This document shows, piece by piece, positions 29,384 to 49,454 of a stretch of 64,000 nt of DNA (position 1 is its first letter; every line of letters begins with the position of its first letter). The stretch lies in NCBI GenBank assembly GCA_007121075.1, contig SKMK01000021.1, positions 1-64,000 of the forward strand, in the 5' to 3' direction. Below the pieces are notes generated by a model. It did not search any database. It was not told the origin of the DNA and was given only the letters and a program-made list of their open reading frames with translations. Made by a program: the position numbers and the translations under genes. Origin of the DNA: Syntrophomonadaceae bacterium. Its GTDB lineage: Bacteria; Bacillota; Dethiobacteria; DTU022.

Positions 29384-30370
29384 TTATCTCCCGTTTGGGT
29401 TAATCAATTTTTCAACCAGGTCCTGCTTGCTGCTTTCATCCAGGGCCAGGTAGTAGGTGTCATCGTCATCCCGGGTAAAATATTCGCCCTGCAGGGAATA
29501 ATCGTAAATCGCATCCGCTTCCAGGCGTTCACCGGCAAAAAGGGTCAGGGCGGTGACCTGGTTGAAGTTTAAGTCGGTCCGCACATGTTCGCGGTAAGCC
29601 GCATAGGTGGGGATTACGTAGCGGAACAGGCCCATCTCCTGGAAGTAGTCAAAAGTAGCCAAAAGCAGTGATTTCTGGCGTTCCATGCGGTTCAGGTCGT
29701 CCCGGGCATCTTCTTCCCGGTACGTTAAATAGGTCAGGTAACCGCGGCCGTCGAGCATCTGTGGGCCTGCCTCCAGCGATTCCCGGGGGGTGGGACCGAT
29801 CATATCTCTTTCCACGTTGTAGTAAACACCACCCAGGGAATTAACGAGCTGTTCCAGGCCCTGGATATCCATGGCGATGTAATAATGGAGCTCGATTTCA
29901 TCCCAAAGTCCGCCGATCGTATCCACGGCATAGCGCATCCCTTCAGCGTGCTGCTCGTCCAGACCCTCTTCTTCGGCTGCATCAAAGCCGTAGCTGTAAG
30001 ACTGGCGGATCCGGTCTTTATCCCCGGCGTGGGCAATTTCCACGTATGAATCGCGGGGCACGGCCAGCATGGTGACCGAATCCCGGTCGAAATTGACTGA
30101 AGTGATCAGGATGGTGTCCACGAAGTAGACCTCGCCAAAGGTATTGTCCTCGCGGCGGTTGTGCAGGCCCATCACGGCGACATTGACCACCCGTTCATCA
30201 AAGTATTCCTCGATGTCCCCGCCGCTGCCAAAATCGTGGCGGAACAAGGAGGCCGGGTCGTAGTAAACCTGGTAAACGCCGTAAAAGATGATCGAAAAAG
30301 AAACCAGGATGATCGAAAAGACAATTCCCAGCGAAATATAAAGTTTGATTTTACCGGACAGGTTGTTCAT
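29384..30370 (-). CDS. LytR-CpsA-Psr (LCP) family glycopolymer ligase
   Basis: This 328-residue protein has a short cytoplasmic start, one membrane anchor (about residues 9-32) and an extracellular LCP domain with VNVAVMGLHNR, AVPRDSYVEI and RMERQKSLL, the arginines and aspartate that hold the polyprenyl pyrophosphate. LCP enzymes move glycopolymers from the lipid carrier onto peptidoglycan or related acceptors. It follows a second LCP gene after 14 bp, so they form a pair. Confidence 0.9.
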   Translation of the reverse strand: MNNLSGKIKLYISLGIVFSIILVSFSIIFYGVYQVYYDPASLFRHDFGSGGDIEEYFDERVVNVAVMGLHNRREDNTFGEVYFVDTILITSVNFDRDSVTMLAVPRDSYVEIAHAGDKDRIRQSYSYGFDAAEEEGLDEQHAEGMRYAVDTIGGLWDEIELHYYIAMDIQGLEQLVNSLGGVYYNVERDMIGPTPRESLEAGPQMLDGRGYLTYLTYREEDARDDLNRMERQKSLLLATFDYFQEMGLFRYVIPTYAAYREHVRTDLNFNQVTALTLFAGERLEADAIYDYSLQGEYFTRDDDDTYYLALDESSKQDLVEKLINPNGR

Positions 30371-30384
30371 AATGCTCCCTGCCT

Positions 30385-31932
30385 TTAGTACCGGTTATCG
30401 TTGCTGCCGCCATCGGCGGCAGGTTCTTCCTGCTGTTCCGGTTCTAAATCTTCCTGGTTCTCTGCCCCGGATTCTCCCTCTTCATCTGCAGCCGGATAGT
30501 CTCCGGCGCCATCACCGGTGCCGTCACCCTGATCCCCGGTTCCACCGGGCTGATCATCCGGGCCGGGCTGTTCTTCTTCCGGGTTATCTTCAAATATGCT
30601 CGGCCTGTCATCGTCCCTGAAGCGCTTTTCCCTTTCTTCTTCCCGGCGCAGCCGTTCCTGTTCCTCCAGGTACTCCGGACTGTCTTCCAGCACAATCGGC
30701 GGCCACCGCTCGGCCTCAACCCCAAATACTGCCCTGATAATTTCAAGCCGCTCATCCTGCCTGAGGATCTGGTACCAGATCCCATCCCTGGTCTGCCCGT
30801 CGCCCGGCAAGACGTGGAATTCGAGATCGTCCACTGTCAGGTCCCTGGCAAAGTAAGCCAGGGAAGCAATCTGGGTATAGCTGAGGTCGGTTTCCACGTA
30901 ATCTTTGTAAATCCGGTAGGTGTTGGGTATGTCGGCCAGCTTGCCCTGTTCCCGCAGGTAAACAAAAGTTTCCCTGAGCAGGTTGATCTGCCGCTCTATG
31001 CGCCCGTAATCCTGGTCGGTGGCCTCGTCGCGGTACTGCAGGTAACGCAGGTAGGTTTTTCCGTCCATGACCTGTAGACCTTTGGGGACCAGGACACGGC
31101 CCACATCCCAGTGCTGGTCGTATATAGTTTCCTCAACTTCGTAGTAGATGCCGCCCATAGCGTCGACCAGTTCGATTACCGAGTACATATCGACCGAAAT
31201 GTAATAGTGAATCGGGATGTCGCCCAGGGTGTGGCTGATCGTGTTCAGGGTATAATTAATTCCGTCTTTATGGCTGTCCTTGCCGTCACCGTAGGTGTAA
31301 CCGAAAAAATAAGAATGGTTGATCTTGTCGTGCATCCCACTCATGCCATAGATCGGCACGTAGGCATCGCGGGTTATGCGCACCACTGACACTTCATCGG
31401 TGGCAAAATCGATAGAAAGCACGGCAATCATGTCCGGGCGGAACATCTCTTCACCCATTTTTTCCCGGCTCCAGCCGCGGTCAAAACCGAGCACAGCAAT
31501 ATTGACTATTCGATCAGAAAAGGCCATATCCACTTCATGGTCCTGCTCAAAGGTGGCGTCGTCCAAAAGAATGCGCTGCGGTTCCTGCACACCGGTATAA
31601 AGCGAATAAGCATAGGTGCCCACTCCGGCCAGCAGTAACAGCAGGGCTCCGCCCACGGCCAAAAGGATTTTTTTCAGGCGCTTTTTTTGCCCCCGGCGTC
31701 TTTCGCCTCTCCCGGTGTATTCTTCTTCATCGGCCCCCCAACCGGCATCCCAGGGACCGAGCTCGTCGTACCAGTTCGGTTCGTCCAGGCCCAGTTTGGC
31801 CGCGCCCTCTTCTTCCCCGGAAGCCTGGCGCTCATTTTCCGGCCGGCTTTCTTCATTTTTTTCCCGGTTTAGAACTTTTTCCTGGTTCCGGTTTTGTTCC
31901 CGGTGTTGATCCCGATCCCGGTTTCCGGTCAT
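30385..31932 (-). CDS. LCP-family glycopolymer ligase with long acidic C-terminal tail
   Basis: From ATG 31932 the protein has 515 residues: a charged cytoplasmic region (about 80 residues rich in E, R, N), a membrane anchor (ILLAVGGALLLLLAGVGTY), an LCP domain (IVNIAVLGFDRG, RITRDAYVPIYG, RIERQINLLRETF) and a C-terminal tail of about 100 residues rich in Glu, Asp, Gly, Gln and Pro. I chose this ATG because GGGAGG is 9 nt upstream; the frame is open 18 codons further but without such a site. The acidic tail is absent from the neighbouring paralogue. Confidence 0.9.
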   Translation of the reverse strand: MTGNRDRDQHREQNRNQEKVLNREKNEESRPENERQASGEEEGAAKLGLDEPNWYDELGPWDAGWGADEEEYTGRGERRRGQKKRLKKILLAVGGALLLLLAGVGTYAYSLYTGVQEPQRILLDDATFEQDHEVDMAFSDRIVNIAVLGFDRGWSREKMGEEMFRPDMIAVLSIDFATDEVSVVRITRDAYVPIYGMSGMHDKINHSYFFGYTYGDGKDSHKDGINYTLNTISHTLGDIPIHYYISVDMYSVIELVDAMGGIYYEVEETIYDQHWDVGRVLVPKGLQVMDGKTYLRYLQYRDEATDQDYGRIERQINLLRETFVYLREQGKLADIPNTYRIYKDYVETDLSYTQIASLAYFARDLTVDDLEFHVLPGDGQTRDGIWYQILRQDERLEIIRAVFGVEAERWPPIVLEDSPEYLEEQERLRREEEREKRFRDDDRPSIFEDNPEEEQPGPDDQPGGTGDQGDGTGDGAGDYPAADEEGESGAENQEDLEPEQQEEPAADGGSNDNRY

Positions 31933-31959
31933 CAGCGCAAGCCTCCCTTCTTGATCCAA

Positions 31960-31986
31960 ATTATAACATACAGGGAAGGGTTTCAA
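31960..31986 (-). promoter_or_regulatory. Possible promoter for the LCP gene pair
   Basis: On the minus strand TTGAAA (31981-31986) and a perfect TATAAT (31960-31965) lie inside the 3' end of the upstream gene. The 15-bp spacer is shorter than optimal, so support is modest. Confidence 0.35.
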
Positions 31987-33238
31987 CCTTTTTGCCGCTT
32001 AAATAGCTCTGGTCGGTCCAGAGGTAGTCCCACTCCCCGAACCGTCCCACGGGCAGGATGCCTTTTTCGGCCAGGTAGTCCCGGACGATCTTGCGCCTGC
32101 CGGTCATCCCTCTTTCAAAAACCACGTTGGCGTAGGGCAAAATCCGGCAGTCGGTAACGTCAATATCAGGAGCGCACAGGAGGCCCATTTTTTCCGCCGC
32201 CCCGATCACATGCCCTTCCAGGTCTTCCAGCGACACCGGCAGGGGCTTATAGCGGGAAAAGTAGGTTTCAAATTGCAGGGAGCTGCAGCCTTCCGGGGCG
32301 TTATCGGGCGATTTACGGTAGGGGGCATGGACCCGGGCGGGCATGATATCGCGGTCATAGATGTAGAACCAGAGGTGCTCTCCGGCCTCAGGCGTATTAA
32401 GCCCGAGCGAAACCAGAGCAATCGAAGTGGCCCACAAACCTTCTGCCGCTTCTTTAACCGCAGCCGGCGTCCCATCGATCATTTCCGCCATTTCCGGCAG
32501 GGGTGCGCTGCTGACCAGGTACTCGTAATATTCCCTGGTCCCGTCCCGGCATTCCACGAAACGTTTTGAGGGATCAATCCGGACCGCTTCTTTTCCGGTG
32601 CGCAGGTCCAGGCCTTCGACCAGCGGGTCGAGGATGGCCCTGAACCCGCCGCGCCGGGGGTAAAACAGTTCCGGGAGATAATAAGTCAAAGGAGTCCGGT
32701 CGGTCATGGCCCCGAAAAGGACCTCTTCCAGGGAAGGGCGGTAGAGGCGGTTGCCGATCCAATCCGTGCTCAGGCGCTCCGGGGGCACGGTCCAGTATTT
32801 CCCGGTATAGCGGACCGGGAACCGGTCGGCGATCACTTTCCCAAACTGTTCGTACAGCCACTGCCGGTAATCGGAAGCTTCGCCCCGGGCGGGACGCTCA
32901 ACAAAGCTCTTGATCGCCTCCACTTTTTCTTCAGCCGGCAGGGGATAGAGATTGTTCTGCACCGGGTGCTTCAGCCAGCGTCCCTGCTCGTAATTGTACG
33001 GTTCCGGGCGGTGGGTGATCAGGTCCGCCCTGGCCAGCACTTCAGAATAAGGCTCGTTTTTGCTAAAGGCAAAGTGGACGGCGTTGTCGAAGCGGAAACC
33101 GTCCTTGTGAAAATGATCGAGCAGGCCCCCGTAGCGATCACCTGCCTCCAGGATTACCGCTTCCCGGCCGGCCTGCCGCGCCTGACAGGCCGCTGAAATA
33201 CCGGCCACTCCACCGCCGATGATCAAGATTTCGGCCAT
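31961..33238 (-). CDS. FAD-dependent amine-oxidase/UDP-galactopyranose-mutase-like protein
   Basis: This 425-residue flavoprotein starts with the FAD dinucleotide motif IIGGGVAGISAA and LEAGDRYGGLLDHF, the pattern of the protoporphyrinogen oxidase / UDP-galactopyranose mutase superfamily. Similar proteins recur in polysaccharide clusters without a settled activity. The middle (TGKYWTVPPERLSTDWIGNR) resembles mutase-like members. A role in modifying a sugar or lipid-linked sugar is inferred from context. Its start overlaps the end of the priming transferase gene by 16 bp, so they are co-translated. Confidence 0.78.
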   Translation of the reverse strand: MAEILIIGGGVAGISAACQARQAGREAVILEAGDRYGGLLDHFHKDGFRFDNAVHFAFSKNEPYSEVLARADLITHRPEPYNYEQGRWLKHPVQNNLYPLPAEEKVEAIKSFVERPARGEASDYRQWLYEQFGKVIADRFPVRYTGKYWTVPPERLSTDWIGNRLYRPSLEEVLFGAMTDRTPLTYYLPELFYPRRGGFRAILDPLVEGLDLRTGKEAVRIDPSKRFVECRDGTREYYEYLVSSAPLPEMAEMIDGTPAAVKEAAEGLWATSIALVSLGLNTPEAGEHLWFYIYDRDIMPARVHAPYRKSPDNAPEGCSSLQFETYFSRYKPLPVSLEDLEGHVIGAAEKMGLLCAPDIDVTDCRILPYANVVFERGMTGRRKIVRDYLAEKGILPVGRFGEWDYLWTDQSYLSGKKVETLPCML

Positions 33239-34602
33239 GTTAACCTCCCCAAAGCCTCTTTATTCAATCCCCGGGCTGCTTCCCGGTTAATCAGGGTTGG
33301 TATTGTCAGCAATACAATCCTGAAATCCATCAGGAGCGAATAATCGGAAACGTAATAAAGGTCGTAGCGCAGCTTATCCCTGGTATTAGTGGCATAATGC
33401 CCTGCTACCTGGGCCAGGCCGGTAATGCCCGGTTTGACTAAGTGCCGCAGGTTATACTCGGGCATTTCCTCCTGAAAAAGTTGGACGAAATAGGGCCGTT
33501 CCGGTCGGGGGCCGACAATACTCAGGTCTCCCCGCAAAACATTGTAAATCTGGGGCAGCTCATCCAGGCGGGTGGCCCGCAGGAAGCGGCCCACCGGGGT
33601 GACCCGGTCGTCTTCCTCGGTCGAAAACACGGGCCCGCTCTGATCCTCGGCATGATCGATCATCGTCCGCAGCTTGTAGAGGGTGAAGATACGGTTTCTG
33701 AAACCGACCCGTTCCTGGGAAAAAATGACCGGGCCAGGCGAAGTTGACTTGATCAGGATGCTCAGCAAAAGCATCAGCGGCAAGGCCGGGACGGCCATCA
33801 CCGCGGCCATTGCCAGGTCAAAAACCCGCTTGATAAAGAGCTGGCTAAAGGTAGCCTGCATATCCTGGCACTCCACAACCGGGGTATCGTGGACCTGGGT
33901 AATCATAGCCCGGGTCAGGATTATTTCATAAAGATCGGGGACAATAAGCACTTCCCGGCTCTGGTCAAAGCTCTCCCGGATCACCCGGTTTTTCTGTTCC
34001 AGCTCCAGGGAACCGGCAATCATGACCGCATCGGCCCCCGGAAGCCACTCCGAAAACTCGTCGACTTTGTCCGGTCCAATAACCTTGATTACCTCAAATA
34101 CACCGCGGGGCAGGCACATCAATTTTTCGAGGGCCTGTTCCACCTCATCGTGACTGCCGATAACTAAAAGTTTTTTCTGCCCGTGGATCCAGCGCTCCAG
34201 GCGCCAGTAAAGGAACCGCCAGCCGATCAAAAGGACCAGCTGGATCACGGGTGCAGCCAGGAATACACCCTGCTGAAAAATAAAGGCCCTGGTCCAAAAG
34301 GCAAACAGCGCGCTGAACACAGCCAGACCGATCACGCCCGTAAGCAGCGAGCGCACCACCGGCATCATTCCGCTGAGCTGACGGGAGTAAAGACCGAGGT
34401 TGTTGAACAAAAGTACGGTTGCCAGCGATAAAAGAGGCAGCAGCAAAAAAAGCGGTTCCAGCTGGAACCCCTGGAGGTCGCCGGTTACGAAAACAAAGGC
34501 AAAATAAAGGCCCAGGTTGACCAGTGAGATGTCCACCAAAGCCACCAGCCATTTTGGGATGCCGCTGGTTTTTACATGCCCCCTGCTGCTGTTAAAACCC
34601 AT
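33223..34602 (-). CDS. Polyprenyl glycosylphosphotransferase (priming sugar transferase, WbaP/CpsE type)
   Basis: This 459-residue enzyme attaches the first sugar-1-phosphate to undecaprenyl phosphate. The N-terminal half has four membrane segments and a cytoplasmic Rossmann-like domain (residues about 1-250); the C-terminal bacterial sugar transferase domain starts with KRVFDLAMAAVMAVPALPL and has LYKLRTM, TRLDELPQIYNVLRGDLSIVGPRPE and VKPGITGLAQV, the conserved catalytic block. GGTGGAG is 7 nt before the ATG. It is the likely first committed step of the locus product; which sugar it transfers cannot be read. Confidence 0.93.
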   Translation of the reverse strand: MGFNSSRGHVKTSGIPKWLVALVDISLVNLGLYFAFVFVTGDLQGFQLEPLFLLLPLLSLATVLLFNNLGLYSRQLSGMMPVVRSLLTGVIGLAVFSALFAFWTRAFIFQQGVFLAAPVIQLVLLIGWRFLYWRLERWIHGQKKLLVIGSHDEVEQALEKLMCLPRGVFEVIKVIGPDKVDEFSEWLPGADAVMIAGSLELEQKNRVIRESFDQSREVLIVPDLYEIILTRAMITQVHDTPVVECQDMQATFSQLFIKRVFDLAMAAVMAVPALPLMLLLSILIKSTSPGPVIFSQERVGFRNRIFTLYKLRTMIDHAEDQSGPVFSTEEDDRVTPVGRFLRATRLDELPQIYNVLRGDLSIVGPRPERPYFVQLFQEEMPEYNLRHLVKPGITGLAQVAGHYATNTRDKLRYDLYYVSDYSLLMDFRIVLLTIPTLINREAARGLNKEALGRLTWPKS

Positions 34603-37278: not shown

Positions 37279-38430
37279 TTACCGCGGCAGGGATGCTTTT
37301 ATAATTGCCCGCACCTCTTCCAGGCCGGCCGGGCAGATGTTGTTGCCGGAACGCTCCGGGGTAAACATCCGGTCGGCCAGGGCCAGCGCAGCTTCGGCTC
37401 CCAGCTTGTATTTTTCAAGCAAATCCCTGACCCCGATCTTTGCAAAAAGTTCCTCCAGGCGCGTCGACAGGCCGCTGATCCCCCCGCAACCGGCCATTCC
37501 GGCGGCCATTTGCAGGCGGCCGTCATCACTCCTGGCATTATAGGCCAGAAGGGCCGGCAGGGTAAAACCGCAGGCCAGGCCGTGGGGCACCCCCAGGGCG
37601 GAGGTAAGCGGATAAGACATCGAATGGGCCAGGGCGGTTTTGGTAATGCTGATGCAGACCCCGCCGTAAAAGCTACCGGTCAGCATCATGGCCCGCTTTT
37701 CTAAGTCCCGGGGCTTTTCAACAAGCGCGGGCAGGGCGTCCAGGGCAATATCGATCGCCCGGGCGGCGTAGCTGATGCTGAGCGGCCCGGCATTGCGGTT
37801 CCAGACTGATTCCAGGGCGTGGGACAGCACGTCGAGGCCGCTGATAACCGTCGTTTCTACCGGCAGAGACAGGGACAGTTCCGCATCAAGCAGGGCCACA
37901 TCCGGAAAAAGGTCCAGGTGAACCAGGGAATATTTTTTAGAACTGCAGTCGTCCCAGATGGTGGCAAAGGGAGTCGCTTCGCTGCCGGTGCCTGCTGTGG
38001 TAGGGACGGCGATCATGTAAAGGGGCGGGATGTCCGGCAGGGCCACATTCCCGGTCAAATGTTCCCGCAGGGAAAACTGCGGATCGTCAAGGCCAAGCAG
38101 GCAGCTCAGCGCCTTGGCCGTGTCCAGGGCACTGCCGCCGCCGACTCCGACCACAAAATCGATATTTTCTTGCTCCAATTCAGTCCGGTAGTTCTCAATC
38201 GAAGCGATATCGGGGTTGGGGCAGACCCGGTCCAAAACAATCACCCGGCGCCCGCCTAAGAGCTCCTTGAGCTTTCCGGTGACCCCCCTTGCTGTTGATC
38301 CCGGGGAAGTAACCAGCAGGACCTTGTTCATATCCCCTTCCGGCACATGGGAGGCCAGTTCGTTTATAACGCCCGGTCCGGAAACAACCTGCACCGGGTT
38401 GTAAAAAGACCATTTCCGGTCATAAAGCAT
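37279..38430 (-). CDS. Iron-type alcohol dehydrogenase, predicted phosphonoacetaldehyde reductase
   Basis: This 383-residue group III alcohol dehydrogenase has the nucleotide motif GGGSALDTAKAL and the metal ligands in GLDVLSHALES (Asp, His), ALAHSMSYPL (His) and VPHGLACG (His). In other phosphonate pathways, iron-type dehydrogenases reduce phosphonoacetaldehyde to 2-hydroxyethylphosphonate. It sits directly downstream of PEP mutase, phosphonopyruvate decarboxylase and a nucleotidyltransferase (3 bp gap), so the same role is inferred. An alternative is that it acts on another aldehyde in glycan tailoring. Confidence 0.85.
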   Translation of the reverse strand: MLYDRKWSFYNPVQVVSGPGVINELASHVPEGDMNKVLLVTSPGSTARGVTGKLKELLGGRRVIVLDRVCPNPDIASIENYRTELEQENIDFVVGVGGGSALDTAKALSCLLGLDDPQFSLREHLTGNVALPDIPPLYMIAVPTTAGTGSEATPFATIWDDCSSKKYSLVHLDLFPDVALLDAELSLSLPVETTVISGLDVLSHALESVWNRNAGPLSISYAARAIDIALDALPALVEKPRDLEKRAMMLTGSFYGGVCISITKTALAHSMSYPLTSALGVPHGLACGFTLPALLAYNARSDDGRLQMAAGMAGCGGISGLSTRLEELFAKIGVRDLLEKYKLGAEAALALADRMFTPERSGNNICPAGLEEVRAIIKASLPR

Positions 38431-38432
38431 CT

Positions 38433-39173
38433 TTATTCCTCCCAGTCTCCGCCATAATAGCTTCGGGCCACTTCCAAATCCGTGCGATCATCTATCTCCA
38501 TGCAAAACTCATTTTCCAATTCCACCGGGTAAAGGCCGAGCCCCGGCAGCAAATTGTTCAGGGCATTTTCGGCGTAAACCTTGAGTTCCCCCCTGGCCCG
38601 GAAGCGCTCCATCTCTTCCAGCCAGACTGAGAAAGCCTGCCCGGACAGCCTGTAAAAAGGAATCAAAAAGACGCAGTTTTCACCGAACAGATCGACCCCG
38701 ACCTTTTTAACCAGGCCATTTTCCATTTCCGCTTTAAAATCTTTTTCAGGCAGCTCAATGTTGGGGTTGGTCAAAACCGCATTCCGGCAGCCCGATGCTA
38801 AAAGCTTATCCAAAACCTCCGGATCAAAAACCAGGTCTCCGTGCAGGAGGATAATCTCCCCGGGATTTTTATTTCTTAGAAATTCCCCGGCCAGGATCAG
38901 CGAATAGATATAGTTGGTTTGCTCGTAGTCAGGGTTGTTGACCAGGCTGACCGGCAACCATTCCGGGCGGCCGTCCAGGTAATCCTTGATTTGATCCTCG
39001 AACGGGCCGGTGGTAATTAAGATATCGTTTAAGCCAAAACGCTCAAAAATATTTAACTGCCGGCCCAGGATATTTTCCCCATTGCCGATTTTAACCAGGC
39101 ACTTGGGCCTGGCCTCGGCAAGCTCTCCCATCCTCGACCCTGTTCCTGAATTTAAGATGATCACCTGAGTCAT
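38433..39173 (-). CDS. Sugar/choline-phosphate-type nucleotidyltransferase (LicC/PntC-like), predicted phosphonate cytidylyltransferase
   Basis: This 246-residue nucleotidyltransferase begins VIILNSGTGSRMGELAEARPKCLVKIG, the MobA/LicC-type nucleotide-binding loop, and has LLHGDLVFDPEVL and EIDDRTDLEVARSYY, which match CTP:phosphocholine and CTP:2-aminoethylphosphonate cytidylyltransferases. In context it probably activates a phosphonate with CTP for LicD-type transfer. It overlaps the phosphonopyruvate decarboxylase gene by 4 bp. The N-terminal domain of PEP mutase here is a second, unrelated cytidylyltransferase fold. Confidence 0.85.
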   Translation of the reverse strand: MTQVIILNSGTGSRMGELAEARPKCLVKIGNGENILGRQLNIFERFGLNDILITTGPFEDQIKDYLDGRPEWLPVSLVNNPDYEQTNYIYSLILAGEFLRNKNPGEIILLHGDLVFDPEVLDKLLASGCRNAVLTNPNIELPEKDFKAEMENGLVKKVGVDLFGENCVFLIPFYRLSGQAFSVWLEEMERFRARGELKVYAENALNNLLPGLGLYPVELENEFCMEIDDRTDLEVARSYYGGDWEE

Positions 39174-40306
39174 TTATAACAGCACCCTTGCAAAAATTTC
39201 ATGAAGGCGGCCTTGTTTTCCCGGGGTGTGGTTTTGGGGCGGCCCAGATCGCTCCTGGAGCCCCTGCGGATCCGGATTTCAAGCAGGGAAGGTCCTTCTC
39301 CTTCCCTTATTTTTTCCATGGCCTCTTCCAGTTCTTCCTCATTGTCCGCCCGCAAGACCAGCCGGTAACCGCAAGCTTCAGCTACGCCCCGGATATCGAT
39401 CCGGAAGCCGGCCGTGGCCTGCCCGCCCACCGAGTCGTGGGCGCTGTTGTTAAAAACCAGGTGGCGGAAATTTTTAGCTCTGCTGCCGGCATTGATGGCC
39501 AGGGCCCCCATGTGCATGATCACCGCCCCGTCGCCGTCAAAGCAAAATACCCGGCGCTCCGGTTTTTCCAGGGCGATCCCCAGGGCAACCTGGGAAGCAT
39601 GGCCCATGGAACCGACATTTAAAAAGTCGCGGCTGTGTCCTTCCCCCTGTTCTTCCCTGTATTCGTAAATCTCCCGGGACAGTTTGCCGGTGGTGGAAAC
39701 CACCACGTCTTCTAAACCCAGGACCGGCAGGATCTTCTGCACCGCCTCTTCCCTGCTCATCAGGTAAGAACTTTCCTGCTCATTTTCCGGCCGGTAGGGG
39801 CTGAAAGTGCCCTTTCCGGCTACCAGGGCAAAGGGTTCGCTTTTGGTGCGCATATGCCTTGCCGCCCGGGCCAGGACTGCTTCTGCCTCCTTGTCTGAGA
39901 AGGGCAAGAGGGCATACTCAATACCGAGCGCCTGCAAAAGCGGCAGGGTGACCAGGCCCTGTTTTAAGTGTTGAGGCTCGTCCGGCACTTCCGGTTGGCC
40001 CCGCCAGCCGATCAACAGTAGCACAGGAATGCTGTAAACCATGGGATCGGCCAGGGAAACCAGGGGATTGGTGGCGTTGCCCAATCCGGAATTTTGCATG
40101 TAAACCATTCCGGGCCGGCTGGTGGCCAGGTAATGGCCCGCGGCCAGGGCCACGGCGTTGCCTTCGTTGGCAGCCACCAGGTGTTTTGAGGGAGGTATGT
40201 GGTCCGAAATACAGGCGGAAATATCTGAAAGCAGGGAGTCCGGCACCCCTGCAAAAAAATCAACCCCCTCTTTCTTCAGGGTTTCAAAGAAAAAGCGGCA
40301 GTCAAT
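39170..40306 (-). CDS. Phosphonopyruvate decarboxylase, apparent ATT start
   Basis: This ThDP enzyme turns phosphonopyruvate into phosphonoacetaldehyde, the irreversible step that pulls phosphonate synthesis. Motifs are the active Glu in AANEGNAVALAAGHYLA, GDGAVIMHMGAL with NNSAHDSVGG (ThDP/Mg site) in the C-terminal half. Family members begin about 20 residues before the PDSLL motif. Here a frame without ATG, GTG or TTG near that point runs DCRFFFETLKKEGVDFFAGVPDSLL; a GGGAGGG site at the end of pepM stands 7-10 nt before two ATT codons (40309, 40306). I place the start at ATT. A GTG at 40246 would cut off the N-terminus and has no ribosome binding site. Confidence 0.88.
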   Translation of the reverse strand: MDCRFFFETLKKEGVDFFAGVPDSLLSDISACISDHIPPSKHLVAANEGNAVALAAGHYLATSRPGMVYMQNSGLGNATNPLVSLADPMVYSIPVLLLIGWRGQPEVPDEPQHLKQGLVTLPLLQALGIEYALLPFSDKEAEAVLARAARHMRTKSEPFALVAGKGTFSPYRPENEQESSYLMSREEAVQKILPVLGLEDVVVSTTGKLSREIYEYREEQGEGHSRDFLNVGSMGHASQVALGIALEKPERRVFCFDGDGAVIMHMGALAINAGSRAKNFRHLVFNNSAHDSVGGQATAGFRIDIRGVAEACGYRLVLRADNEEELEEAMEKIREGEGPSLLEIRIRRGSRSDLGRPKTTPRENKAAFMKFLQGCCYK

Positions 40307-40310
40307 AATT

Positions 40311-41609
40311 TTAACTCCCTCCCGGAATTAAATGCAAGATATCCTTGATCGGCATGCAGTAATCTTCACTTTCGCAGGCCCGCTCATTTTCCAGGATGCA
40401 CCGGGCTGTTTTGACCATGGCCGGGTAAGCGCTACGGAGCAGGTGGTTGGCATAGATGACGATATTGACCCCCGCCTCGGCCAGTTCGGTTTCCCTGACC
40501 CGGTTGTAAGTGGTTGGGACCGCCACCAGGGCCGCCTTCTTATTGAATTTACGGTATTGTCGGCAGAACTCAAATATTTCATCCGGCTCTTTTTCTTTGC
40601 TGTGGATCATAATCCCGTCCGCTCCCGCTTCCAGGTAGGCGTGGGCCCGCCGGAGGGCGTCCTCCATCCCGGTCTTCAAAATCAAGCTCTCGATGCGGGC
40701 AATGATCATGAAGTCTTCGGCCACCTGGGCCTGTTTACCCCGGGTGATCTTTTGGCAAAAGTTTTCGATGCGGTCCTGTTCCTGTTCAACCTCGGTCCCG
40801 AACAGGGAGTTTTTCTTCAAACCGATCTTATCCTCGATGATCACCGCCGATACTCCGAACCTTTCTAAACTTTTGACCAGGTAGGCAAAATGCTCGACGT
40901 GGCCCCCGGTGTCACCGTCCATGATGATCGGCTTGGTAGTCACCTCCAGGATATCGTTAATCGTGTTCAGGCGGGAGCTGGAATCGACCAGTTCGATGTC
41001 CGGTTTGCCCTTGACGGTGGAATCGCACAGACTGCTGACCCACATCCCGTCAAACTGTTTGACCATATCGTCCTGGCTGATCTTGAGCTTTTCCACGATC
41101 AGACCGGTCAGACCGTTATGGGCCTCCATGAACCGGACCAGCGGCTTGACTTCGAGCAGTTTCCGGAGGCGGTGAATCCGGAGCTGGGGAGTGGTGCCGA
41201 TATCCTGCAGGGCCTGTTCGAGCATGCTTACTGAAACGCCCTTGGTGTATTCAATTTCTACCAGCTGTCCGCCCCACTGTTTCAGGGTCTCGATTACTTT
41301 TTCCCGGATTTCCTGCTGGATCCCGGTTTTCCAATCGTCTCCGTGGATCACATAATCGGGTTTCAGTTTCATCAAATTGGGCACATAATCAAGCGTATCC
41401 TGGGGCACTACCCGGCTGACCCCTTTTAGATTTTCCACGATCTGCTTGCGGTGTTCAAAATCAATTACGGGCAGGCGTTTATAGGTGGCAATCACTTCAT
41501 CGGTTAAAATACCGACCGTAATCTCACCCAGCTTTCTGGCTTCAGCAATAACATTAATATGGCCATGGTGGATGATATCAGCGCTCATGGCCAGGTAAAC
41601 CTGCTTCAT
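40311..41609 (-). CDS. PEP mutase with N-terminal cytidylyltransferase domain
   Basis: This 432-residue fusion starts phosphonate synthesis by turning PEP into phosphonopyruvate. The N-terminal domain (about residues 1-130) is a nucleotidyltransferase of the cytidylyltransferase type: HHGH at 14-17 is the HxGH motif and the RxxGVSVS-like segment ([10 protein letters not shown]) the second. The C-terminal domain (about 150-420) is PEP mutase: [10 protein letters not shown] at 259-268 fits EDK-x5-NS, the sequence that separates PEP mutase from isocitrate lyase relatives, and GDTGGHVE holds metal ligands. Such fusions occur in phosphonate-tailoring clusters. It heads a five-gene unit (mutase, decarboxylase, NTase, dehydrogenase, GT). 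Confidence 0.94.
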
Positions 41610-41663
41610 TTCCCACTCCCCTTTGCCGAAGCTAAAATTCCTTCTACCGTACTATTTTAATAT

Positions 41664-41693
41664 ATTATCATATCTGTTCAACCGGGGTTTCAA
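41664..41693 (-). promoter_or_regulatory. Predicted promoter of the phosphonate operon
   Basis: On the minus strand TTGAAA (41688-41693, 5 of 6) and GATAAT (41664-41669, 5 of 6) are 18 bp apart, about 50 bp before the pepM start with its GGGGAG site. Confidence 0.6.
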
Positions 41694-41699
41694 AAACAG

Positions 41700-41998
41700 G
41701 CCGGATCATACCTGTGCTTTAATTATCTTTCGCTACAGGCTTTATAAAAACCTTTTAAAATATTAATTTACATCCCGGATGTCACGCCCTCATTTAAGCC
41801 AAAACAGGTGGATTAAAAAAAAGTGGCAGGGCAGCAGCACAACTGGATTTCACAGGAAAAACTGCCCCCTGCAAGCGCTGCAGGAAACGAAAGGACGGTC
41901 AAAAATCGGGGCTGTTAATTGAACAGTAAAGCTGTTGTTTGCTACCAATCATGGAATAGATCAGGCAAGCATTGTGGCAACAGCCTTATTATGGAGGC
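41700..41998. other. Intergenic gap between licD genes and pepM
   Basis: No gene is supported here. A hairpin CCTGCA-AGCGC-TGCAGG lies at 41868-41884, and on the minus strand it is followed by GGGCAGTTTTT, so it might be a weak terminator for the licD operon upstream of the pepM promoter. Otherwise the gap is unremarkable. Confidence 0.3.
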
Positions 41999-42679
41999 TC
42001 AGCGGTTAAAGCAGGTAACCATTTTTTCGGGACTGGTGTGTTTGATCGCTCCGTCATCGAAGATGAAAAACCAGTCCTTACGCGGTTCCTGCCATTTGCC
42101 GTAGCGGTAAACCAGGTACTCCCGGTAGTTTTTCGGAGCGGGAATGCTGTCATAAAGGGGGGCGGTTTCCATGAAATACCGGTCCGGGATCCATATCATG
42201 TAGACCTTGTAAGTGGTAGTCCAGGGCCAGTTGTGAAGCGGAACAAACTCCTTCCTGATGAAGAACTCCTGGATAATACGGTGCGGCAAAGCGTAGAGGT
42301 AATAGGCCAGGTTTTTGTTTTCAAAGGGGTAGGGCATGCAGTAGACCTGGGGGCACCAGGCATAATCTTTCTCCCGCCTGAAGAGGCTGATGTCAATGTC
42401 CAGCGAAGAGCTCTTGAACCGCGGCGAAAATTTGTACTTGAAATTAAGGCCGCGGTAATTTTTAACCGAAACCTTGTAGCCCCTGGCCCTGGCTGCAGGT
42501 ATAATTTTCTCCAGGAGGGGTTCGCTGCCGGACCACATACTAATATCGATGTCGTGATCGCCCTCGATCACTCCACCTTCGCGGGCCAGGCCGAGCAGGG
42601 TTCCGCTGTCGATCCAGTACTCTACCCCGTGGTCGTTCAACAAACCGCAGATCCAGTTCAGTTCAGGGTTAAGGCTCAT
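41999..42679 (-). CDS. LicD-family phosphotransferase, paralogue 1
   Basis: This 226-residue protein has the LicD/fukutin-like core: EYWIDSGTLLGLAREGG, then GDHDIDISMW, the metal-binding Asp cluster. LicD enzymes transfer phosphocholine or another CDP-activated headgroup to a glycan. It ends with the pattern YGKWQEPRKDW..DDG, which is repeated in the two neighbours. Third of three tandem genes; a donor CDP-phosphonate from the neighbouring operon is the likely substrate. The start has AGGAG at a good distance. Confidence 0.85.
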   Translation of the reverse strand: MSLNPELNWICGLLNDHGVEYWIDSGTLLGLAREGGVIEGDHDIDISMWSGSEPLLEKIIPAARARGYKVSVKNYRGLNFKYKFSPRFKSSSLDIDISLFRREKDYAWCPQVYCMPYPFENKNLAYYLYALPHRIIQEFFIRKEFVPLHNWPWTTTYKVYMIWIPDRYFMETAPLYDSIPAPKNYREYLVYRYGKWQEPRKDWFFIFDDGAIKHTSPEKMVTCFNR

Positions 42680-42697
42680 ATAAACTGCTCCTGTTTT

Positions 42698-43447
42698 TCA
42701 GCTGATTATGGCCCCGTCGTCTTTCCAGTAAACCCAGTCATTCCTGGGTGTTTTCCAGTCCGGCCCGTACTTGAGGGCCAGGTACTTTTCCGGGTCGGCC
42801 GGCACAGACACCACCAGCCCCTCCACCTTGACCTTCTCCAGGTTCAAAAAATAGTGTTCATCCACGGCCATCCGGAAGGAAGGCCTGAACAGGTACTGGG
42901 CTCTACCTGCACTATAACATATAAAATTCCAAAGCGGGACCGGAATTATTTTCGCCGCCATCGCGGCCAGTTTCGCCCCCCCGGGAGGCATCTTGTTATC
43001 CAGCGTTCCCTGCCCGGCACAGGCACAGAACAAAACAGCTCCAACCAGCAATTCAGCCGGCTTTCCCGAAACCGGGTAATAAACTTTCTTAACAACCCGT
43101 CCCCGCTCGCGCCGGTAAAAGGCGATGTTGATCATGCTGAAGTTTTTTTCCAGGTCGGAGATTGAAAGCTGGTGAGGCTTGTAGGTTTCGACAAAGCGGC
43201 CTTTTTTCTGCAGGCGTTTAACGATTTCCCGGCGGTGCTTGCGGTAATCATCTTCCCACATCCCCAGGTCAAGATCGTGGTCCGATTTTAAAAGGCCTCC
43301 CTCCCGGATTACCCCGAGCAGGGTGCCCTGGTCGAGCCAGCAGGAAATCTTCAGCTCCGCAAATGTTTCCAGTACCGCCCTGAAATGTGGGTGACCCTTA
43401 AGGCTTTTCGGGCCTTCTCCGGCCGGCCTCTCTCCAGTTCCCGTCAT
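42698..43447 (-). CDS. LicD-family phosphotransferase, paralogue 2
   Basis: This 249-residue protein carries the same core: SCWLDQGTLLGVIREGG and KSDHDLDLGMW, and ends with YGPDWKTPRNDW..DDG. It differs clearly from its neighbours (the middle contains KVYYPVSGKPAELLVG and several cysteines), so the paralogues are old and probably act on different positions or acceptors. Its ATG overlaps the stop of paralogue 3 by 4 bp (ATGA). Confidence 0.82.
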   Translation of the reverse strand: MTGTGERPAGEGPKSLKGHPHFRAVLETFAELKISCWLDQGTLLGVIREGGLLKSDHDLDLGMWEDDYRKHRREIVKRLQKKGRFVETYKPHQLSISDLEKNFSMINIAFYRRERGRVVKKVYYPVSGKPAELLVGAVLFCACAGQGTLDNKMPPGGAKLAAMAAKIIPVPLWNFICYSAGRAQYLFRPSFRMAVDEHYFLNLEKVKVEGLVVSVPADPEKYLALKYGPDWKTPRNDWVYWKDDGAIIS

Positions 43448-44322
43448 CTGCTCCCCCGCAGTTTTGTTTTAACTTTTACCCGGGTTTCCTTTAAAACGGG
43501 GGCACCGTTCCAGGCCTGGTAACGGGACAGATCAACCATTTCTTCCGGCCGTACCTGCCTCAGGCCCCCGTCATCAGTCCAGATGTTCCACTTCTCAACC
43601 GGGGTGCGCCAGCTGCCGTAACGGTAAGTAAGATAAGCATCCCACTCAGTCGGAATGTATGCTTCATAGAGGGGATGGTACTTCCGCTGCTCAAAAAACC
43701 GGGCCGGGACCCACCAGGTTCCCGTCTGGCGGCGAACCTTCCAGGGCCAGCGGGTAACCTCGGTGGCAATCAGGCGCTCGCGCAGTTTTTTCCTGGCCAC
43801 CACAAAATATCTATAAAAACGCCGGGTCACCCTCCCCGAAAAAGGAGGACCGGTCCCTTCACCGGCCGGGCACCAGGCCCAGCTGCCGGCCCGCCTGAAA
43901 AGCATGATGTGCACGGGCAGTTTGCCTTCTCTCAGAAAACGATACTGGCAGACCAGTCCCCTGTAAAGCCAGATTGTAACCGTGTAACCTTGATCCCAGG
44001 CGGCAGGCAGAAGCCTGAGCAGATATTCTTCGTCTTCGGCCCACATCTGCAGATCAATATCCTTCTCATGGTCCAAAAGTTTGCCGTCACGCATCAGGCC
44101 GAGCAGGACCCCGCTATCGATAGCATAGGGGACCCCGTGTTCATTGAGGAGATCGGTAAAGGACCGGTAGTCTTTATCCCTGGGCCGGGGAAAAAGCGCA
44201 TCCTCTTCTTCTACGGCCCCCTCATTTCCCTTTAGATGGACCTGGTCTTCTTTATTCAAAGTCCTGTCAACAACCTGTTCTTTTCCCTTATCTTCAGCCC
44301 TGTCCCGTCCGTTCAGTTTCAT
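43444..44322 (-). CDS. LicD-family phosphotransferase, paralogue 3
   Basis: This 292-residue member has an N-terminal charged extension of about 50 residues, then PYAIDSGVLLGLMRDGK and HEKDIDLQMW (the LicD core), and a C-terminal YGSWRTPVEKW..DDG block. It is first in the three-gene unit. The 480-bp gap upstream (44323-44803) separates it from a divergent aminotransferase. Confidence 0.84.
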   Translation of the reverse strand: MKLNGRDRAEDKGKEQVVDRTLNKEDQVHLKGNEGAVEEEDALFPRPRDKDYRSFTDLLNEHGVPYAIDSGVLLGLMRDGKLLDHEKDIDLQMWAEDEEYLLRLLPAAWDQGYTVTIWLYRGLVCQYRFLREGKLPVHIMLFRRAGSWAWCPAGEGTGPPFSGRVTRRFYRYFVVARKKLRERLIATEVTRWPWKVRRQTGTWWVPARFFEQRKYHPLYEAYIPTEWDAYLTYRYGSWRTPVEKWNIWTDDGGLRQVRPEEMVDLSRYQAWNGAPVLKETRVKVKTKLRGSR

Positions 44323-44803: not shown

Positions 44804-46084
44804 GTGAAGGAACAGTTTTACGAAAAGCATAACAAATACATCTTCCCGTGTGTTGCAACTTACTATCAGGAACCGCTGGTGTTGGAAAAGGGCAAAGACA
44901 ACCTTCTCACCGATATCGAAGGAAATGAGTATTTGGACTTTTTTGGTGGTATTTTAACGATTAGTTTGGGGCACTGCCTGGAAGAAGTTACCGAAAAAGT
45001 AGTGGAGCAGTACCGGACCCTTCAGCATTGTTCCACGCTGTATCAAAATAAACCGGCACTCCTTTATGCAGAAAAACTGGCCCGGGTTACTCCCGGGAAA
45101 CTGCAAAAAAGCTTCTTTACCAACAGCGGCAGTGAAGCTGATGAGCATGCGGTTCTTTTAGCCCAGTTGGCGACCGGAAATGAAGAAATCATTACCCGGA
45201 GACATGCATACAGCGGGGCAAGCACTTTGACCATGGCTATGACTGCTCTGGCTCCGTTCAGAATGGGATCAAACTTTGGTTATTTAAAATTTGCCCATGC
45301 GCCGTACTGCTATCGCTGCCCGTTTGGTAAAACCTACCCCGGGTGCGATCTTATATGTGCCAAAGACATTGAAGACCTGATCATAACTTCCACTAAAGGA
45401 CAGATAGCCGGTTTTGTGGCTGAACCAATTATGGGTGTAGGCGGTTTTATCACGCCGCCGAAGGAATACTTTAAGGAAGTTGAAAGGATCATCAGAAAAT
45501 ACGGCGGCCTATTCATCGTTGACGAGGTGCAGACCGGCTGGGGACGAACCGGAGATAAAATGTTTGGAATTGAGCAGTGGGGAGTGGAGCCTGACATAAT
45601 GACCATGGCAAAAGGAGCCGCCAATGGTTTACCGATCGGAATTACCATAGCTGCTCCTGAAATTGCCGATCATTTTGACGGTAAACATATCTCCACTTTT
45701 GGAGGCAACCCCGTAACAATGGCCGGAGCCCTGGCCACCCTGGATTATATAGAAAAAAATAACATCCCCAGAAATTGCAAAGTTATGGGCGATTACCTGC
45801 GCGACAAGCTGGATGAGCTGCAGGACAAATACCCCGTAATCGGAGATATTAGAGGCATGGGCCTGATCCTGGGATTGGAGATTGTGAAAGAAAACAAAAC
45901 TCCTGATGCAGAAATGGTGGATAAACTGTTCGAGGAAACAAAGAAACAGGGTCTACTGCTCGGTAAAGGCGGCCTTTACGGAAACGTAATTCGTGTTACA
46001 CCGGCTTTAAATGTAGGGAAAGAAGAAATCGATGAAGCCATAATCAAGCTGGACCGGGCTTTTGCCGCAACGGTTAAAAATTAA
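44804..46084 (+). CDS. Class III (AGXT2-like) PLP aminotransferase
   Basis: This 426-residue aminotransferase has the fold-I features FFTNSGSEADEHAV, VDEVQTGWGRTG and the PLP lysine in MTMAKGAANGLPIG. The HAPYCYRCPFGKTYPGCDLICA segment is typical of alanine-glyoxylate/beta-amino acid transaminases of the AGXT2 group. Its substrate is unknown. Its position between the phosphonate block and the exporter genes makes phosphonoacetaldehyde (to 2-aminoethylphosphonate) thinkable, but classical AEP transaminases are class V proteins, so this is a weak guess. Start is GTG with AAAAGGAG 9 nt upstream. Base composition is less GC-rich than its neighbours. Confidence 0.9.
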   Translation: MKEQFYEKHNKYIFPCVATYYQEPLVLEKGKDNLLTDIEGNEYLDFFGGILTISLGHCLEEVTEKVVEQYRTLQHCSTLYQNKPALLYAEKLARVTPGKLQKSFFTNSGSEADEHAVLLAQLATGNEEIITRRHAYSGASTLTMAMTALAPFRMGSNFGYLKFAHAPYCYRCPFGKTYPGCDLICAKDIEDLIITSTKGQIAGFVAEPIMGVGGFITPPKEYFKEVERIIRKYGGLFIVDEVQTGWGRTGDKMFGIEQWGVEPDIMTMAKGAANGLPIGITIAAPEIADHFDGKHISTFGGNPVTMAGALATLDYIEKNNIPRNCKVMGDYLRDKLDELQDKYPVIGDIRGMGLILGLEIVKENKTPDAEMVDKLFEETKKQGLLLGKGGLYGNVIRVTPALNVGKEEIDEAIIKLDRAFAATVKN

Positions 46085-46143
46085 TCTGCCAGCCCTTAAA
46101 AGTGAAGGGGTTTCCTGATGGAAAGGAGCCCGGGCAACACCCG

Positions 46144-46920
46144 ATGAACGAATACTTAAAAGAGCTGTTTAAGAGAAAAGACCTGCTGATCTACCTGGTT
46201 ACTTCGGGGCTAAAAGCCCAGTACCGGAACACTTTCCTGGGCTACCTGTGGTGGATCCTTGACCCGTTATTGATGGGGGCCGTTTACTATTTCCTGCGCG
46301 TTGTGGTCCTGGGCATGGAAGGGGAATACGTTGGAGCCTTTTTGATCACCGGCCTGGTCGCCTGGCACTGGATCAACTCCAGTTTAAAAGGCGCGGCCTC
46401 TTCAATCACCGGCCGCTCCCGGATCATCACCCAGGTTTACCTGCCCAAGGCCATCTTTCCCCTCGGGGTCAACCTGACCCAGACGATCAATTTTTCTTTC
46501 GGCCTGGTCGTGGTGGCCGTTTTCCTGGCCGCCTACCAGATTGTTCCCGGCAGCCGGCTCCTGTGGCTGCCCCTGATCATGATCGTCCAGTTTATTTTCC
46601 TGGCCGGGCTGTCCCTGGTAGTTGCTTACCTGTGCATGTTCATCCGTGATATCGACAACGTCCTTACCCATCTGATGCGGATCTGGTTCTGGGGTACCCC
46701 CGTAATCTGGGAAGTCGATCGCCTGGACGAACAATACCATTTCATTTTCGACATCAACCCGGCCGCCATTTTGCTGATCAGCTACCGCAATGTGCTCATG
46801 TACAATACCGCTCCCGAACCGGGCAAGCTGGCCCTGATCGGCTTCCTTTCCCTGGCCCTAACTATGTACATGATCTACTACTACCACCTGAACGAGCACA
46901 AGATAATCAAGGCCCTCTAA
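46144..46920 (+). CDS. Polysaccharide ABC exporter, membrane subunit (Wzm/TagG type)
   Basis: This protein (258 residues from ATG 46144) belongs to ABC-2 polysaccharide/teichoic-acid export permeases: an amphipathic start (KDLLIYLVTSGLKAQYRNTFLGYLW) followed by six membrane segments, with the conserved LWWILDP near the start. A GTG at 46102 would add 14 residues but has no ribosome binding site; AAAGGAG is 15 nt before ATG 46144, which is somewhat far, so the start is uncertain. It is followed by its ATPase gene after 45 bp. In the chain it would export a finished lipid-linked polymer. Confidence 0.9.
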   Translation: MNEYLKELFKRKDLLIYLVTSGLKAQYRNTFLGYLWWILDPLLMGAVYYFLRVVVLGMEGEYVGAFLITGLVAWHWINSSLKGAASSITGRSRIITQVYLPKAIFPLGVNLTQTINFSFGLVVVAVFLAAYQIVPGSRLLWLPLIMIVQFIFLAGLSLVVAYLCMFIRDIDNVLTHLMRIWFWGTPVIWEVDRLDEQYHFIFDINPAAILLISYRNVLMYNTAPEPGKLALIGFLSLALTMYMIYYYHLNEHKIIKAL

Positions 46921-46965: not shown

Positions 46966-48522
46966 TTGGAGCATCACAAAAACAACAGCCCTACATCCGG
47001 TGCCTCAGCCGCTAAATCCGGCACCGATCCCCGGGTCCTGATCCGGGCCGAAAACCTGGGCGTTTACTACGAAAGCGACCGGGACAGGCGTGATGACTTC
47101 AAGTCCCACGTCCACCGGATCGTGCGCGGAGAACGCCGCAACGACATCTTCTGGGCATTGAATAATATCACCTTCACCGGATACGCCGGCGACGTACTCG
47201 GGGTAATCGGCCCCAACGGGGCCGGCAAAACCACCCTCTGCCGGGCTATCGCCGGGCTGCTCCGCCCCAACCGGGGCACTTTAGAAGTCAGGGGCAGCGT
47301 GTCAGCCCTGCTGTCGCTCGGCACCGGCTTCGACAAGGAGCTGACCGGCAACGAAAACATTTATTTGAACGGGATGATGCTCGGGTTTTCCCGCCGCCGG
47401 ATCAACGAACTCCTGCCCCTGATCCAGGACTTTTCCGGTCTGGGCCGCTTCCTGGACCAGCCCCTTAAATATTACTCCAGCGGCATGAAGGCGCGCCTTG
47501 GCTTCAGCATTGCTTCGGTCATCGACGCCGAGATCCTGGTCATCGATGAAGTTCTCGGTACCGGCGACATGGAATTCAACGAAAAAGCGGTCCAGAAGGT
47601 CTGGGATCTGGTCGGCGGAGCCAGGATGGTCCTGGTGGTTACCCACGAAACTGAATTCGTCAAAGAGCACTGCAACCGGGCTCTTTGGATCGAAAACGGG
47701 ACGATCAACGCCGCAGGCGCCCCGGCCGAAGTGGCCGGTGCCTACGAACAGGCCGCCTCCGGGGCCAAAAGACCCAAAAAAAAGAAACTGTCCCGCCTCA
47801 AGAAAACCAGTCAAACTGCCGGGGTTGAAAAAGCGATCGAGGCCAGGAACTTGAACCTTGAATTCAAACTGGAGAACCAATCCCTCAAAGCCCTGGACAG
47901 CCTCAACTTTGATGTCTACGACCGGGAGATCCTCGGCATCATTGGCCCCAATGGGGCCGGCAAAACCACCCTCTGCCGCACCCTGTGCGGTATTTACAGG
48001 CCGGATGCAGGTGATCTGAAGGTAAACGGGACCATCGCCGCCCTCTTGAGCTTCGGGACCGGCTTCAACCCCCAGCTTTCCGGCTACGACAATATCTACT
48101 TAAACGGGATGATGCTCGGCATCCCCAGTCTGGCGATCCGCAAAGTGGAAGATCAAATCATTGAATTCTCAGAGCTGGATCAGTTCATCGATCAGCCAGT
48201 GAAGCATTATTCCAGGGGCATGCGCTCCCGCCTCGGTTTCAGCATTGCCTCCATGCTCCAGCCGGACATCTTTATCGTCGACGAAGCTCTCTCTGCGGGC
48301 GATATTGCTTTCCAGGAAAAGGCGGCGGCCAGGATGCAGGAAATGCTGGAGGAAGCCAAGGCCGTCCTGCTCGTCACCCACAGCATGAAGATCGTCAAAA
48401 AAGTCTGCACCAGGGCCCTGCTCATGGACCGGGGCCGGATCATCTTCGACGGCGACCCCGGCGAGGCGGTGGATATCTACCGCACCTCCGTCAAAAACAA
48501 GAAAAAACCGGCCTTGTCCTGA
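46966..48522 (+). CDS. Polysaccharide ABC exporter, ATPase with two fused nucleotide-binding domains
   Basis: This 518-residue protein contains two complete Wzt/TagH-type ATPase domains in tandem. Domain 1 (about residues 25-265): GPNGAGKTT, SSGMKARLGFS signature, ILVIDEVLGTGD Walker B, VVTHE switch. Domain 2 (about 290-510): GPNGAGKTT, SRGMRSRLGFS, IFIVDEALSAGD, LVTHS. A Lys-rich linker (KRPKKKKLSRLKK) joins them. Usually such exporters use two copies of one half-size ATPase, and family members with C-terminal carbohydrate-binding domains have only one NBD. The start is a TTG with a weak site; the first 25 residues are unconserved. Confidence 0.92.
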   Translation: MEHHKNNSPTSGASAAKSGTDPRVLIRAENLGVYYESDRDRRDDFKSHVHRIVRGERRNDIFWALNNITFTGYAGDVLGVIGPNGAGKTTLCRAIAGLLRPNRGTLEVRGSVSALLSLGTGFDKELTGNENIYLNGMMLGFSRRRINELLPLIQDFSGLGRFLDQPLKYYSSGMKARLGFSIASVIDAEILVIDEVLGTGDMEFNEKAVQKVWDLVGGARMVLVVTHETEFVKEHCNRALWIENGTINAAGAPAEVAGAYEQAASGAKRPKKKKLSRLKKTSQTAGVEKAIEARNLNLEFKLENQSLKALDSLNFDVYDREILGIIGPNGAGKTTLCRTLCGIYRPDAGDLKVNGTIAALLSFGTGFNPQLSGYDNIYLNGMMLGIPSLAIRKVEDQIIEFSELDQFIDQPVKHYSRGMRSRLGFSIASMLQPDIFIVDEALSAGDIAFQEKAAARMQEMLEEAKAVLLVTHSMKIVKKVCTRALLMDRGRIIFDGDPGEAVDIYRTSVKNKKKPALS

Positions 48523-48583: not shown

Positions 48584-49012
48584 TTACGATTGTTCATTCT
48601 CCAAAAACTCAACTATATATTTGCTAAATTGCTCAAAGTCTTCCAGCCGGTTATTAATGATATCATATATTTCCTCTGAACTAATATGAGCGTATTCGTG
48701 CACCAACCTGTTTCGATAACCGGCCATTCCTTTAATGTGATTACTGAATGCAGGATTTATTATGCTATGTTGGCCCAGTAATTCTATGATATGACTGTAT
48801 TTCTCCGGTTTACCCAACCCCTTCTTTGCTATAAGATGACGTCCTATATCGAACATTGATTCCAAAGATCGCCTCAAGTGATGTTCTGCAATAGCGTAAT
48901 AATCGGGATTTGAGAGAAATTGTTCTCTGGTAAGTATTTGCATTTTTTTTAACCGAGCGGAAGATGTTCTGATCTGTGCAAGGCGGTCTTCTATAAATTC
49001 AAAGCTAACCAT
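48584..49012 (-). CDS. hepT: HepT-family toxin (DUF86 ribonuclease-like)
   Basis: This 142-residue all-helical protein has the HepT motif RNRLVHEYAH (R-x4-H-x-Y type), the active site of these HEPN RNases. It is translated after and overlaps the nucleotidyltransferase by 8 bp, the typical HepT-MntA pair, in which MntA AMPylates the toxin at the Tyr of this motif. AT-rich compared with the flanking polysaccharide genes, so probably acquired. Confidence 0.88.
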   Translation of the reverse strand: MVSFEFIEDRLAQIRTSSARLKKMQILTREQFLSNPDYYAIAEHHLRRSLESMFDIGRHLIAKKGLGKPEKYSHIIELLGQHSIINPAFSNHIKGMAGYRNRLVHEYAHISSEEIYDIINNRLEDFEQFSKYIVEFLENEQS

Positions 49013-49454
49013 AAAAATTTCCTTCCTTTATAGCTTCCCTGACTTCCTTACGGTAAAGATCTAAAAACGGTTTAAAATCAAGGTAATCTCTTATCACTTC
49101 ATCTTCAAAATCAGTCCGTTTTTCTTCATCACAGCTGTAGATGAGTATACCTCGAGTGATCACCAGGTACTTAAACTCTATCGTCGCTGTATTTAAAAGA
49201 ATTACATCTACTTCTTTTTGCAACAAAGACGCCGCTTCTTCTTCTACTTTCATTATCAAATAGTTGACATCATCCTGGTCCAAACTTTTATCCACCAGGA
49301 TAGCAAAATCATAATCGCTTTTTTCAGTCGAAGTTCCTTCAGCCCTGGAACCAAAAAAATAAGCTGCTGTTACCTGGTATTTGTCCAGGAGATTTTCCAG
49401 TTCTTTTTTAGGTAAAATACAATTATTTTTCTCAACCACTCTCAGGCACCTCAA
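49005..49454 (-). CDS. mntA: MntA-family minimal nucleotidyltransferase (antitoxin)
   Basis: This 149-residue protein has the minimal nucleotidyltransferase motif AYFFGSRAEGTSTEKSDYDFAI (GSx...DxD). In HepT-MntA modules it neutralises the HepT RNase by adding AMP to it. It is first in the pair, as is usual for this order. The rest of the chain has a hydrophobic beta-sheet region and a helical C-terminus (DYLDFKPFLDLYRKEVRE). Confidence 0.88.
   Translation of the reverse strand: MRCLRVVEKNNCILPKKELENLLDKYQVTAAYFFGSRAEGTSTEKSDYDFAILVDKSLDQDDVNYLIMKVEEEAASLLQKEVDVILLNTATIEFKYLVITRGILIYSCDEEKRTDFEDEVIRDYLDFKPFLDLYRKEVREAIKEGNFYG

Follow-up and report, generated by a model that had tools for sequence, protein, structure and literature searches.

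Three tandem LicD paralogues beside a phosphonate operon in a Syntrophomonadaceae bacterium: one canonical member and two with a fixed replacement of the third catalytic acid

Does a run of three adjacent LicD genes beside one phosphonate operon stand for three headgroup transferases? The question is raised by licD_A, licD_B and licD_C (proteins A, B and C), tandem minus-strand open reading frames in the window (the whole 64,000-nucleotide stretch analysed here; Table 1). An earlier note on this DNA had described them as three such transferases, alike in their core motifs and C-terminal block, different in their middle parts, and forming an unusual expansion. The last 4 bases of licD_A are also the first 4 of licD_B, and 18 bases separate licD_B from licD_C.

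Table 1. Features of the LicD array, the neighbouring phosphonate and glycopolymer genes, and other features of the window
Feature	Position	Strand	Description
licD_A (P0003)	43444..44322	-	292 aa; LicD-fold paralogue; E86, D88, D90, H138 at the four FKRP catalytic positions
licD_B (P0002)	42698..43447	-	249 aa; LicD-fold paralogue; D56, D58, D60, N107 at these positions
licD_C (P0001)	41999..42679	-	226 aa; canonical LicD; D41, D43, D45, D96 at these positions
Gap licD_C / CyT-Ppm	41610..41998		389 bases
CyT-Ppm	40311..41609	-	PF01467 cytidylyltransferase-like domain fused to PEP mutase; TIGR02320 above cut-off, 419 bits; EDKxxxxxNS motif present
Ppd, phosphonopyruvate decarboxylase	39170..40246	-	TIGR03297 above cut-off
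PntC-like MobA-type nucleotidyltransferase	38433..39173	-	PF12804; family as in PMC6697681
Fe-ADH, phosphonate type	37279..38430	-	Best match TIGR03405, below its cut-off
Polyprenyl-phosphate sugar-1-phosphate transferase	33223..34602	-	PF02397; likely glycopolymer primer
LytR-CpsA-Psr protein	30385..31986	-	Likely attaches polymer to wall
Second LytR-CpsA-Psr protein	29384..30370		By similarity
Class III aminotransferase	44804..46084	+	Between licD_A and exporter
ABC-2 type exporter permease, Wzm-like	46102..46920	+	Profile match
ABC exporter ATPase, two ABC domains	46966..48522	+	Best match teichoic-acid export ATPase, TagH type
HepT-like / MNT nucleotidyltransferase pair	48584..49454	-	Toxin-antitoxin type; beside exporter
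MttB-family open reading frame	207..1679	-	PF06253

That the three genes encode LicD paralogues is borne out by their open reading frames, by their scores against the Pfam LicD profile PF04991 (gathering score, 22.6 bits) and by FKRP-like models of A and B. C (E 9.7e-7, 29.5 bits) and B (E 2.9e-11, 44.3 bits) score above the gathering score, and A, with 20.2 bits, falls slightly under it, although it is 37% identical to C; the pairs B-C and A-B share 25% and 24% identity, respectively. AlphaFold models of A and B, built from a 15-row alignment, have mean pLDDT values of 76.9 and 80.5, with mostly well predicted cores and a low-confidence N-terminal tail of 48 residues in A. The top PDB match of both models is human FKRP (Foldseek E 5.0e-6 for A and 2.4e-7 for B), at modest TM-scores of 0.38-0.50. 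The relation of C to FKRP comes from its sequence and its identity with A, and all three proteins are predicted to share an NTase fold related to that of FKRP.

The alignment of A, B and C likewise agrees with the motifs described in the earlier note, in that the (S/Q)G(T/V)LLG core, the DxD and the C-terminal YG.W..P...W....DDG are common to all three and the middle parts diverge. All aligned LicD proteins share the YL..YG core of the C-terminal block, and a related phosphonate locus with a single LicD (G389, L065) has the W..DDG end in that protein too. As judged from these alignments, the block is an ordinary LicD signature with a W..DDG extension and is not peculiar to A, B and C.

The genes next to the array define a route, which we take to run from phosphonopyruvate through phosphonoacetaldehyde to 2-hydroxyethylphosphonate (HEP), followed by activation with CTP. 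The Fe-ADH is probably the phosphonoacetaldehyde reductase that yields 2-hydroxyethylphosphonate, and from its conservation HEP rather than AEP is suggested as the headgroup, the match of this protein being below the NCBIfam cut-off. Two nucleotidyltransferases lie near ppm, the fused PF01467 domain and a separate PF12804 protein two genes off, and the CyT domain of Fom1 is known to make CMP-HEP (PMC6697681). Glycosyltransferases are among the further genes around the operon. No class III aminotransferase stands at the corresponding place in G001, G005, G006 and G450, and the gene is therefore not considered a core part of the locus; its candidacy as an AEP step of the array was set aside on the same grounds. 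It stands at this place only in the present genome, where it could permit AEP as a second headgroup.

A consensus scan of the minus strand of the gap between licD_C and CyT-Ppm found a terminator-like stem of 11 pairs (41888-41864) and a promoter-like match (41693-41664, 10 of 12), and from these patterns the LicD genes may be transcribed separately from the phosphonate genes. Neither the length nor the sequence of the gap is conserved in relatives, and it has no Rfam match; on these grounds a hidden gene or RNA was rejected. Beyond the exporter, the HepT-like/MNT pair has a second, diverged counterpart nearby in G001 (L029, 15507-16374), where the MNT orthologue is split over two reading frames (14858-15310). 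At the other end of the window, the MttB-family open reading frame reads through an Rfam PYLIS_3 match (611-710); the position of the UAG codon of that model is UGU in this frame, which points to a non-pyrrolysine MttB homologue.

Loci of this general kind have been described before. Pnt loci with LicD also hold a Ppm fused to a PF01467 cytidylyltransferase and a nearby LicC/PntC-like nucleotidyltransferase, and likewise combine glycan genes with a LicD-like transferase (Rice et al. 2019, PMC6697681). The array differs from them in its three LicD paralogues, two of which are without the third acid, and in having an Fe-ADH instead of a conserved AEP transaminase. Several LicD paralogues also act on one wall polymer in the case of pneumococcal LicD1-3 and LicD4 of S. 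oralis: LicD1 and LicD2, with the consecutive locus tags Spr_1151 and Spr_1152, serve phosphocholine, and LicD3 serves ribitol phosphate (PMC4649388). This set, compared here by role, is not accompanied by a phosphonate operon. Another LicD-family transferase, Mf1 from Mycoplasma fermentans (NF045866; PMC11982090), transfers a CDP-activated headgroup to a sugar, and A, B and C match its profile weakly (24-39 bits against an equivalog cut-off of 225). Finally, FKRP (PDB 6kaj-6kan; PMC6965139) has an NTase-fold catalytic domain with a DxD pair, as in the array, but it transfers ribitol phosphate, and the short array LicDs have nothing that corresponds to its stem domain or zinc-finger loop.

The comparison with FKRP is most informative at the catalytic residues. 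Asp360, Asp362, Asp364 and Asp416 of FKRP are essential, D360A, D362A, D364A and D416A each being inactive, and Asp416 supports the site II metal, which lies beside the acceptor (PMC6965139). In the A1 profile alignment, which covers FKRP chain residues 284-377, chain Asp376 shares a column with D96 of C, N107 of B and H138 of A; this residue is Asp416 in the full numbering, with an offset of 40 taken from the Asp360/362/364 motif. The models, which gave secondary structure and Foldseek scores, place H138 and N107 on a strand of the sheet that comes later than the DxD strand, which matches the order in the NTase fold, and their equivalence with Asp416 is drawn from the profile alignment together with this strand order. 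The DxD pair (Asp362 and Asp364 of FKRP) is invariant in A, B, C and all their orthologues, and the position of Asp360 is an acid in all three, Asp in B and C and Glu in every A. The third acid, on the other hand, is kept only in C. Among the 59 LicD proteins where this position was readable, it is His in 9/9 A proteins, Asn in 8/8 B proteins and an acid in all 42 others (Asp 40, Glu 2); the counts for A and B amount to about two evolutionary changes rather than 17 independent ones.

The description of the genes as three headgroup transferases is thus not supported as it stood, since A and B are without the third catalytic carboxylate in every orthologue. The earlier note had itself named two findings that would weigh against it. 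Near-identical duplicates are not what is observed, and identities of 24-37% rule out a recent duplication; the absence of the catalytic Asp residues from two members applies in half, the DxD pair being intact and the Asp416 position being His or Asn. A candidate for a compensating acid in B, the D of 'SISDL' on the preceding strand, was rejected because it is Ala or Ser in some orthologues. A literature search that covered few subscription papers found no described LicD without the third acid. Going by the aligned proteins, what is new here is that two of the three array members have lost this acid as a fixed change.

Other LicD sets and copies were also noted. G042, a related genome from the same taxonomic order, has a larger mixed set (L037, L038 and L039): two LicDs bear N-terminal extensions, an A-type protein has His, a B-like protein has Asp, and the DxD of a short LicD is altered (DWDAE). 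The B-like protein and the short LicD adjoin the same ppm operon and exporter. Either the Asn of B is younger or this B-like protein is no true B. In G000, the genome that includes the window, a fourth LicD (contig C53:2742-3443; L041) carries the canonical third Asp (PVDICAYE) and is distant, with about 25-27% identity to A, B and C.

The array itself is a stable arrangement. Among named genomes, the closest relatives are MAGs labelled Syntrophomonadaceae, and two genera of one family share the A-B-C array next to the CyT-Ppm, Ppd, PntC and Fe-ADH operon. The array is intact in six genomes (G000, G001, G005, G006, G011 and G450; in G005 the contig ends within C) and interrupted only by contig ends in G007, G008, G009 and G029, no member being missing from any contig long enough to show the array. 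CyT-Ppm comes after C wherever the contig continues. Genomes of the genus with no LicD match are also without ppm; G005, G009 and G011 have LicD and no ppm was found in them, each contig ending at the array. G028, G447 and G389 hold a single LicD of the same clade, in the canonical Asp form, beside phosphonate genes. A search for a plasmid-borne licD_A gave no match.

In a phylum sample of 398 genomes, LicD was found in 9 of the 17 genomes with ppm and in 14 of the 381 others (Fisher p 2.4e-8). Adjacent LicD triplets occur in two of the 398, G000 and G412, and the phosphonate loci examined from the sample, other than the array, have one nearby LicD or none. Within this sample, the search for further loci with three adjacent LicD genes that had been proposed for this DNA returned a single one. 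The expansion is unusual, as had been claimed; it is uncommon, not unprecedented. The G412 triplet (L122, 7144-10082) is of the canonical Asp type, its third Asp being read in L058 and L070, and that genome has no ppm match.

Phylogeny, which together with structure prediction had been proposed as a check, separates the three proteins, A, B and C each forming one group in a quick tree (SH-aLRT 99-100 against each other). NG86 estimates of dN/dS, which are rough given nearly saturated synonymous sites, are about 0.05-0.08 for C, the most conserved member, against 0.13-0.23 for A and 0.10-0.33 for B. These estimates indicate that all three are under purifying selection, and values well below 1 argue that A and B are maintained.

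The reading that we favour, at a probability of about 0.55, is that the trio combines a canonical transferase, C, with two conserved non-canonical partners, A and B, and puts a phosphonate on an exported wall glycopolymer. Residues, synteny, fold and purifying selection come from the sequences themselves; to these we add, by inference, the identity of headgroup and acceptor and the parts played by A and B. The locus would make a phosphonate headgroup, activate it with CTP and have it placed on a cell-wall glycopolymer, which would be exported by the ABC transporter. C would move the phosphonyl group to a sugar hydroxyl through a two-metal site formed by D41, D43, D45 and D96, the donor most likely being CMP-HEP and the group 2-hydroxyethylphosphonate. 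A and B would be ancient paralogues held with C as a fixed set, which keep the fold, the DxD and the C-terminal block, each having fixed a different swap (His or Asn) of the third acid. This acid is expected to position the acceptor-side metal, and that site would be altered in A and B. They could assist C as subunits for the binding of acceptor glycan or donor, or be altered-chemistry transferases working with part of the metal site. The fact that the three genes stay together makes a functional set the economical reading.

The first of these options can be put more specifically. A and B might be pseudo-transferase or half-site subunits that join C in an obligate hetero-complex, in which they would bind the donor or the acceptor and leave the chemistry to C; we put this proposal forward tentatively, at somewhat less than even odds. 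It is plausible because the recognition of the acceptor by FKRP spans two subunits (PMC6965139). In a variant of this reading, the His of A may take over the catalytic part of the third acid.

Alternatively, A, B and C could all be active headgroup transferases, each modifying a different hydroxyl or residue within the repeat unit, as LicD1 and LicD2 do. Three diverged, intact paralogues under purifying selection, all with an intact DxD, would fit this possibility, for which the divided labour of the pneumococcal enzymes is a precedent (PMC4649388). The loss from every A and B orthologue of an acid essential in FKRP, together with the Glu of A at the Asp360 position, nevertheless makes it rather unlikely. 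Against the reading that we favour, certain NTase-fold enzymes may function without the third acid, an exchange of Asp for Asn is mild, and the His of A could act as a base or a metal ligand.

Less probable still is a division by donor, with one LicD accepting the phosphonate that the Fom1-like CyT domain has activated and another a second CMP- or CDP-conjugate (of an alcohol phosphate or AEP) from the PntC-like enzyme. Two distinct cytidylyltransferase types do occur within one operon, and the donors of pneumococcal LicD1/2 and LicD3 differ (PMC4649388). However, a nucleotidyltransferase fused to ppm and a separate one nearby have already been described together within one locus (PMC6697681), and the single-LicD relatives G028 and G389 keep both enzymes, which indicates that the second one does not track the extra LicDs. 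Lastly, A and B evolve faster than C and are without some catalytic consensus residues, as decaying leftovers of duplication would be, but this idea is largely refuted and very improbable, given open reading frames intact in every genome whose contig reaches them, identical replacements fixed across two genera and dN/dS well below 1.

The literature searched contains no description of a three-part LicD machine such as the hetero-complex proposed here. To our knowledge, LicD and fukutin-type transferases are little understood apart from FKRP and Mf1. The fixed trio represents a natural experiment on the role of the site II metal and bears on whether transferases of this type act as hetero-complexes. 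For the annotation of phosphonate glycans, the number of LicD genes should not be taken as the number of transfer positions.
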